Positions 28,274-30,146 of a stretch of 64,000 nt of DNA are shown piece by piece. Source of the DNA: an uncultured Prevotellaceae bacterium (GTDB lineage Bacteria > Bacteroidota > Bacteroidia > Bacteroidales > Bacteroidaceae); contig CAMHNI010000007.1 of the NCBI GenBank assembly GCA_946186505.1, positions 61,608 through 125,607 of the forward strand, written 5' to 3'. Positions within the stretch are counted from its first letter, which is position 1. Each line of letters opens with the position of its first letter. The notes under the pieces are model-generated. The model made no database searches, was not told the DNA's origin, and saw only the letters and a program-made list of their open reading frames with translations. A program made the translations under genes and the position numbers.

Positions 28274-28297
28274 CAGATGAAACCTACAAACTATGAA

Positions 28298-29405
28298 ATG
28301 ACAGACGACACCGTAACACAGGAGAAATGGCAATGGCAGGAACCGGGTACAGCGTGGAAGGGTGCCGCTCTGTATCATGTCACTCTGACTGTTCCCGACA
28401 GTCGGTCTGTGTTGGGCAAAATTATTACCCCTGAAGGCGACCCAGCCAAAGCCTGCGTGGTGCGTACGCCTCTGGGCGATGCGGTCGTGGACTGCCTGAT
28501 GAGCATACCACAGCATCATCCTGAGGTGCAGGTACTGCATTTCTGTCTGATGCCCGACCATCTGCATGCTGTGTTGTATGTACGTCGTTTCATGACCAGG
28601 GGTGTCGGGACGTTGGTGAGGGGCTTCTGGCAGGCTGTCAAGAAGCTGGGGCGTGCTTGTTCGGCTTCTCCTATGGTCTCTTCTTTTATGAGCCCGAATG
28701 GTATTCGGGAAAAGCTCAAAGAAGAGAGCAGACAGTTACAGGACTTTGCTGCCACACTACGCGGGAGAATGGGTGACGAGAGCTATTACCGTCTTCTGCC
28801 TCTCTTTACCGAGATGCCATTCATCCGTCCGATGTCTCGTTACTCGCAGCTGCCCAACACCATCCGTTATATCGACATGAATCCCCAGCGTTTGGCCACA
28901 AAGCGTCTAAAGCCCAGTTTCTTCCGTGTACAGAAAGACGTTGTCATCGGTAGCCGCAGCTACGACGGTGTAGGCAATGTTGCTTTGTTGATGGAGGAAC
29001 GACGCCACTGTGCATGTGCGGCACATCATGGTGGAGCAGGCTGCGTATGGAGACACAGCGCCGTTGCGCAACTACAAAAACTCCTGTGTATTGATGGCAC
29101 GCAAAGGGACGGTGATGGTGTCGCCGTTTATCTCGCCAGATGAGAAGCTGGTGATGCAGGTGCTGCTGCAAGAGAAACGTCCGTTCATCCTGCTGACTGA
29201 CAACGGCTTCCGTGACTACTACAAGCCTGCAGATTCTCTTTTCGACGCATGTGAACAGGGGAATCTGCTTATCCTCAGTCCCTGGCCGCATGATGACAAA
29301 AAACGCCACATCAGTCGTGCTGACTGTGTTGCTCTCAATACAATGGCTGAAGAGATCTGCATGTGTCTTTGTGACACAAGCGCAAATATCCCGTCAGCGA
29401 CCTGA
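28298..29405 (+). pseudogene. REP-associated Y1 (HUH) transposase, RAYT-like, with a frameshift
   Basis: The N-terminal part has the Y1 transposase layout: ALYHVTLTVPDS, the metal-binding HUH motif in CLMPDHLHAVLYV, and TIRYIDMNPQRLATKRLKPSFF, where Y...NP..R is the IS200/RAYT tyrosine region. At about base 29009 one extra base breaks the frame. The continuation in the next frame (VHVRHIMVEQAAYGD... to 29405) restores a conserved-looking domain with MARKGTVMVSPFISPDEK, RPFILLTDNGFRDYYKP and LLILSPWPHDDKKRHISRADCVALNTMAEEIC, resembling DprA/LOG-like Rossmann folds fused to Bacteroidetes transposases. The frame-2 tail after 29009 is low quality. RAYTs move REP-type palindromes, and repeats lie directly downstream. 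I start at MTDDTVTQ; 28277 is an alternative. A sequencing error or a real +1 shift cannot be excluded. Confidence 0.75.
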
Positions 29406-29519: not shown

Positions 29520-29632
29520 AAAAAACTGTGCCCCTCGTGCCCCTTTTCGACTTAATAATCTGTCTTACAAATAGTTGGCAGGGGCACAGTAGGCCGAAAA
29601 CCGTGCCCCTAGGGTGCCCCTGCCGTGCCCCT
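29520..29632 (+). repeat. Left arm of a large imperfect inverted repeat
   Basis: It starts AAAAACTGTGCCCCTCGTG and aligns, reverse-complemented, to 30035-30146 along its whole length with few substitutions. It is itself rich in the GTGCCCCT motif. Confidence 0.8.
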
Positions 29633-29740
29633 GAAATACTCCCTCTCCAAGTCGTAAAAACAGTCGTCTGAAGGGGCTGTGGTGGGGTCTGTATCTTCTT
29701 CAATGACAAAATATTACAGACCCCACCCCGTCCTTCGGAC

Positions 29741-29766
29741 ACCCCTCCCCTTTATGGGGAGGGGAG
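29741..29766. repeat. C-rich/G-rich palindrome
   Basis: CCCCTCCCCTTTATGGGGAGGGG, of the same type as 9576-9604 and the guaA insertion at 22603-22634. Confidence 0.6.
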
Positions 29767-29780
29767 TGCCATGCGGCTTG

Positions 29781-29854
29781 TTCGATGGTGGCCCCTGAAG
29801 TAGTCCATTTCCAAGTGTTCGATGGTGGCCCCTGAAGTAGTCCATTTCCAAGTG
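29781..29854 (+). repeat. Perfect tandem duplication of a 37-bp unit
   Basis: Two exact copies beginning TTCGATGGTGGCCCCTGAAG and ending CCATTTCCAAGTG, at 29781-29817 and 29818-29854, with no spacer. A diverged partial copy is at 29625-29660. Confidence 0.95.
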
Positions 29855-29940
29855 CTAAAACGGCCGTATGAAGGGGGCGGACGTGCCGGATAGAGATCAC
29901 AGGCTGGCTGCGTTGGAGGGAGAAATAGGCGCTTTGCAAC

Positions 29941-30005
29941 CGTTTGCGTAGGCGCAAACGACCTTTCGCGTAGGCGCAAACGACCGTGCGCGTAGGCGCA
30001 AAAGG
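29941..30005 (+). repeat. Three-copy hairpin array
   Basis: Three units contain GCGTAGGCGCAAA. The first is a clean hairpin, CGTTTGCG-TAGG-CGCAAACG. Unit spacing is about 21-22 bp. Confidence 0.8.
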
Positions 30006-30034
30006 AATAGACCTAAATTTTCAAGCTATTTCTC

Positions 30035-30146
30035 AGGGGCACCCTAGGGGCACGGTAGGGGCACGGTTTTTGGCCTACTGTGCCCCTGTCAACAAGCTAT
30101 TAATCAGATATTTAAGTCGAAAAGGGGCACGAGGGGCACGGTTTTT
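30035..30146 (-). repeat. Right arm of the inverted repeat
   Basis: Reverse complement of the left arm with scattered differences and one extra CCGTGCCCCTA-like block; it ends GAGGGGCACGGTTTTT. Confidence 0.8.

Follow-up and report, generated by a model that had tools for sequence, protein, structure and literature searches.

RAYTs are maintained like housekeeping genes, and the benefit that they bring to their hosts is an open question. TnpAREP subclass 2.4 (group 4 of Bertels) is known for REPs inserted in frame between the HUH and Y motifs (Quentin et al. 2018, PMC6006769). The family described here shares with it the order of HUH motif and then tyrosine, an occurrence in Bacteroidetes, REPs flanking the gene, and an in-gene REP between the two motifs (PMC6006769). 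It differs from subclass 2.4 in length (330 to 420 aa against a median of 194) and in carrying DHxH where that subclass has NH[IFV]H (PMC6006769). By our reading of the alignment, it lacks the W of the subclass WQ motif, apparently having F instead, and YIxNNP becomes YIDMNP in the window (the whole 64,000-nucleotide stretch analyzed, from an uncultured Prevotellaceae bacterium). Finally, the family has a C-terminal DprA-like domain, which subclass 2.4 does not. The main text of PMC6006769 mentions neither DprA nor Prevotella, and we found no description of a RAYT-DprA-like fusion in the literature searched.

Each of the two parts also has better-known counterparts. The IS200/IS605 transposases (TnpA of IS608 and ISDra2) share the predicted HUH/Y1 fold, whereas no insertion-sequence ends were identified in the family, and its copies within one genome have diverged from each other. 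Proteins of the DprA/Smf type (PF02481; HpDprA, 4ljr; SpDprA, 3uqz) resemble the second part in a predicted Rossmann/SLOG fold, a GN..LL lead-in, and an aligned arginine of the GTR motif, but the family domain is shorter, reads CSR for GTR, is attached to an HUH enzyme, and has no direct Pfam match; no SAM or winged-helix domain was found in the family. ShosA and PsyrA, DprA-like partners in defense or toxin-antitoxin systems, are similar in that ShosA is the top fold match of our model and standalone relatives match PsyrA, while the family differs in having an HUH domain and no toxin partner that we could see. The family is a variant of the RAYT kind in which the DprA-like fusion is the new part.

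Distribution and predicted domains of the fusion

The architecture proposed by the first-pass annotation, a transposase joined to a second domain, was borne out by the homologues: of the 116 loci retrieved, duplicates counted, 103 encode single-frame proteins with both parts; among the exceptions are short RAYTs that lack the second domain, copies truncated at contig ends, and broken copies. Because more than 100 relatives from Prevotella and other Bacteroidales are single-frame and carry both parts, we conclude from sequence comparison that the fusion of a RAYT-like HUH protein with a DprA-like domain is a real, conserved Bacteroidales architecture, and that the copy in the window is broken. 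A scan of named genomes returned at least 482 related stretches; the best 80 of these all came from records of Bacteroidales or Bacteroidetes, with many rumen or gut Prevotella among them. Matching genomes numbered 22 among 60 relatives. The full-length fusion was present in at least 12 of 295 genomes of the order, spread over several families, and the short RAYT alone in many more (counts read off the coverage column). The genome that contains the window holds five further copies, each with one open frame across the matched part. No relative was found in the viral contigs scanned.

In a midpoint-rooted tree of the HUH core alone, every fused protein fell on one side of a branch with 100/100 support, and unfused Bacteroidales RAYTs lay on another branch. 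Two rows labeled as unfused inside the fused clade are a copy cut by a contig end (L021) and one with its second domain in another frame (L216). Because the HUH cores of the fused proteins group in a single clade, one fusion event fits and is the simplest reading of these sequences.

The hallmark of RAYTs, an HUH motif and a single catalytic-type tyrosine followed by N-P, is present in the family, and the histidine and tyrosine are invariant across alignment A1. The profile NF047646 (REP_Tyr_transpos; cut-off, 80 bits) was matched below its cut-off by 14 of 14 relatives, with a best E value of 9e-11 and 37.5 bits for the member shown, and by the window at 17.9 bits (E, 0.0021), also under the cut-off. 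An AlphaFold2 model of L104, an intact relative from Prevotella lacticifex (pLDDT, 90.6; pTM, 0.81), was searched with Foldseek, and its HUH side matched ISDra2 TnpA (8.9e-6), the REP-bound RAYT 4er8 (2.1e-5), and IS608. On its C-terminal side, the best fold match was ShosA (4.6e-6), with HpDprA at 7.8e-5 and SpDprA at 1.3e-3. The model of the window's downstream frame (pLDDT, 76.7) gave marginal matches, the best again being ShosA (1.7e-2).

The sequence route from the second part to DprA runs only through standalone relatives, as PF02481 directly matched none of the fused family members. Profile A3 finds the standalone proteins L148 (7e-9) and L149 (4e-7) and the two-module DprA protein L150 (4.5e-5); PF02481 scores the first two at 2.7e-6 and 5.3e-6, just below its cut-off, and L150 at 2.5e-46. 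The standalone proteins (L148, 1351-1839; L149, 1447-1917) are about 160 aa long, DprA-like and PsyrA-like, and bridge the fused domain to PF02481. L150 (82-2079) has 665 aa with two DprA-like modules and is possibly a separate variant. Direct comparisons were weak: hhalign of the C-terminal profile with DprA gave a probability of 6.7, the family profile searched against PDB sequences up to an E value of 1 returned DprA and TnpA alone, at 0.13 to 0.32, and Pfam and NCBIfam run directly on the window frames returned next to nothing. The residues of HpDprA known to contact single-stranded DNA (ssDNA) are Arg52, Lys137, and Arg143 (PMC4489622), and of these the arginine region alone aligned with the family. 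The profiles and models together point to a RAYT-like HUH/Y1 first part and a predicted DprA-like Rossmann (SLOG) second domain; both identities had been called by the first-pass annotation, and they are upheld by the below-cut-off NF047646 matches and the 4er8, ISDra2, and IS608 folds for the one, and by the A3 profile chain, the L104 fold matches, and the DprA alignment for the other.

The broken copy in the window

Frame 2 of the window, starting at ATG 28277 or 28298, encodes both MPDHLH and RYIDMNPQR. In blastx comparisons, its similarity to intact relatives ends at about 29002 and restarts at about 29004, shifted by one base, continuing to the stop codon at 29403-29405. The two window frames match consecutive residues of intact proteins, 54-309 and 311-432 of L006 (66% and 73% identity) and 4-262 and 265-383 of L024. 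The initial observations that the HUH motif and the Y...NP..R region are intact, that one extra base splits a single protein, and that the shift lies away from a homopolymer, of which there is none at the site, all stand. The break falls within the first stretch of the DprA-like domain, between GNVALL and the first Rossmann strand, and so not exactly at the domain border. Because the DprA alignment starts at the GN..LL segment, which precedes the break, the DprA-like domain itself is cut in the window.

Table 1. Features of the family copy in the window
Feature	Positions	Strand	Basis
HUH/Y1 (RAYT-like) transposase part and first DprA-like segment, frame 2	28277..29002	+	ORF; homology of relatives; NF047646, E 0.0021
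HUH motif MPDHLH (DHLH)	28550..28567	+	Sequence; MPDH.H invariant in alignment A1
Presumed catalytic Tyr codon (RYIDMNP)	28868..28870	+	Sequence; Tyr invariant in A1
REP-like hairpin inside the gene, in the HUH-Tyr linker and translated, with the inner palindrome CCCGAATGGTATTCGGG	28674..28730	+	Fold z-score; shared stem; occurrence in family genes only in the genome
One-base frame break interval	29002..29009	+	blastx frame change; relatives one-frame
DprA-like (SLOG) domain, across the frame break	28940..29405	+	Profile A3 re-found here, E 2e-44; structure of intact relative; DprA alignment start
Open frame after the break (131 aa), covering most of the DprA-like domain	29010..29405	+	ORF; 76% identity with intact copy G000:C56

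By these comparisons, the window copy is a single-lesion, broken member of an otherwise intact fusion family, and the full protein is probably no longer made from it. Values of dN/dS against L006 were about 0.11 and 0.12 for the two halves, at a dS that is high (about 1.5) and near saturation; the low ratio in both halves suggests, therefore, that the lesion is recent or artefactual. Inactivation, a programmed +1 shift, and an assembly error had all been offered at the outset as explanations of the shift, and the first and last of these both remain, sequence alone fitting either a recent mutation or an assembly error. That the extra base arose in sequencing or assembly, the gene of the living cell being an intact RAYT-DprA-like fusion, is a possibility that we entertain at somewhat less than even weight; it accords with a single lesion, with halves that are both still constrained, and with the one-frame state of the genome's other copies over the matched part, but the break site is not a homopolymer, and real decay is plausible too because sporadic broken relatives (L059, L114, L117, and L118) occur in other assemblies, their breaks lying at positions other than the window's. 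The same four relatives bear on the programmed +1 shift, or translational coupling, that would yield a short HUH protein as well as the fusion. The nearness of the break to the start of the second domain and the possible GTG start of the downstream frame at 29010 speak for such a mechanism, but 103 relatives do without it, and the first DprA-like segment lies before the shift and would be missing from a product of the second frame alone. Because the other broken relatives break elsewhere, so that the shift site is not conserved and the homologues are otherwise one-frame, we set this explanation aside as highly improbable.

No conserved neighbor genes, including toxin-like genes, were found at the family loci, and there is thus no obvious operon partner. 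Downstream of the window copy, a pair of 114-nt inverted repeats (29521-29634 and 30033-30146; 85%; GTGCCCCT rich), with about 12 copies of the unit in the genome, some of them paired, is possibly a MITE- or BIME-like element. Between these, at 29939-30004, a 22-nt unit that forms a small hairpin, ACCGTTTGCGTAGGCGCAAACG, stands three times in tandem; contigs 6, 36, and 41 carry arrays like this one. Both types of repeat (29521-30146) were considered as cognate REPs and set aside, because their listed recurrences in the genome adjoin a family gene on this contig only.

Hairpins and the likely function of the family

Perfect hairpins with arms of at least 7 were counted in 99 genes, with dinucleotide shuffles as controls. 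The HUH-Tyr linker contained hairpins in 72 of the 99 genes (shuffles, 7.5), and hairpins lay within 200 bp of the gene in 56 of them (shuffles, 16.8); the density was 4.5 per kb in the linker and 0.6 in distant sequence. An identical stem occurs on both sides of the gene in L069, L119, L120, L127, and L128, and stem copies are dispersed in up to 18 places per genome (reversed control, 0); L069 is among the relatives that have cognate hairpins both on the two sides and dispersed, in a REPtron-like arrangement. A second palindrome lies near the stop codon, within the coding sequence, of some members (L057, L120, and L207).

The 57-nt hairpin of the window (28674-28730) had a fold z-score of -6.86, none of 200 shuffles being equally stable. 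An exact search of ten genomes, the window's and nine others, found its inner stem, CCGAATNNNATTCGG, inside family genes only and once per copy; a looser form of the stem reached seven occurrences in a genome of another family. The stem is common to the window gene and relatives and is read in two phases, and because the reading phase differs between members, it is kept as DNA or RNA and not as peptide. In the window's subclade the palindrome lies in the gene and is undispersed in the window's genome; hence we make no claim of dispersed-REP cleavage for the window copy. By analogy, the overall pattern of hairpins in genes, in flanks, and, for some members, dispersed resembles that of REPs and RAYTs.

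We consider it probable that the window holds a single-lesion copy of a once-fused RAYT-like HUH/Y1 and DprA-like family that processes hairpins with DprA-like assistance. The likeliest function is the processing of REP-like hairpins in ssDNA, in which the DprA-like domain would bind ssDNA or a partner, for example RecA. Intact members would recognize cognate ssDNA hairpins through an HUH/Y1 dimer, the targets perhaps becoming accessible on the lagging strand or when DNA is taken up. Hairpins would be nicked or rejoined through a Tyr-DNA intermediate, as proposed by likeness to RAYTs, while the DprA-like domain might hold the neighboring ssDNA, or bind a partner such as RecA, thus steering or protecting the cleaved strand. 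The hairpin within the gene could serve as a self-recognition or autoregulatory site.

The confinement of CCGAATNNNATTCGG to genes of the window's subclade, once per copy in ten genomes, the retention of the stem in two reading phases, and the occurrence of the genes singly, without conserved neighbors, would also suit a domesticated regulator that binds the hairpin of its own mRNA or gene and acts in expression control or ssDNA handling, not in mobility. We think this rather unlikely, as the HUH and Tyr motifs are retained and, in other subclades, hairpins flank the genes and are dispersed in the REPtron-like manner. A role in defense or as part of a toxin-antitoxin system, drawn by analogy with ShosA and PsyrA, is suggested by the fold match to ShosA and by the scores of the standalone relatives against PADLOC PsyrA (1e-14 and 3.4e-9), but the fused proteins tested had no meaningful PADLOC match, no toxin-like neighbor is conserved, and we regard such a role as very unlikely. 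Since the loci have no conserved neighbors and the fused proteins no defense match, each protein is left as a stand-alone actor.

The permanent union of a RAYT with a DprA-like domain, of a type that binds ssDNA, suggests a pathway of ssDNA capture, recombination, or uptake. At its most ambitious, and as a speculation to which we give little credence, the HUH ssDNA transposase and the DprA-like recombination-mediator domain may act together as a single enzyme, cutting ssDNA hairpins and passing the strand to RecA, a form of ssDNA editing that serves the host. If true, this would provide a direct handle on what RAYTs do for their Bacteroidales hosts, and the question of host benefit can now be addressed with one protein and its own hairpin.
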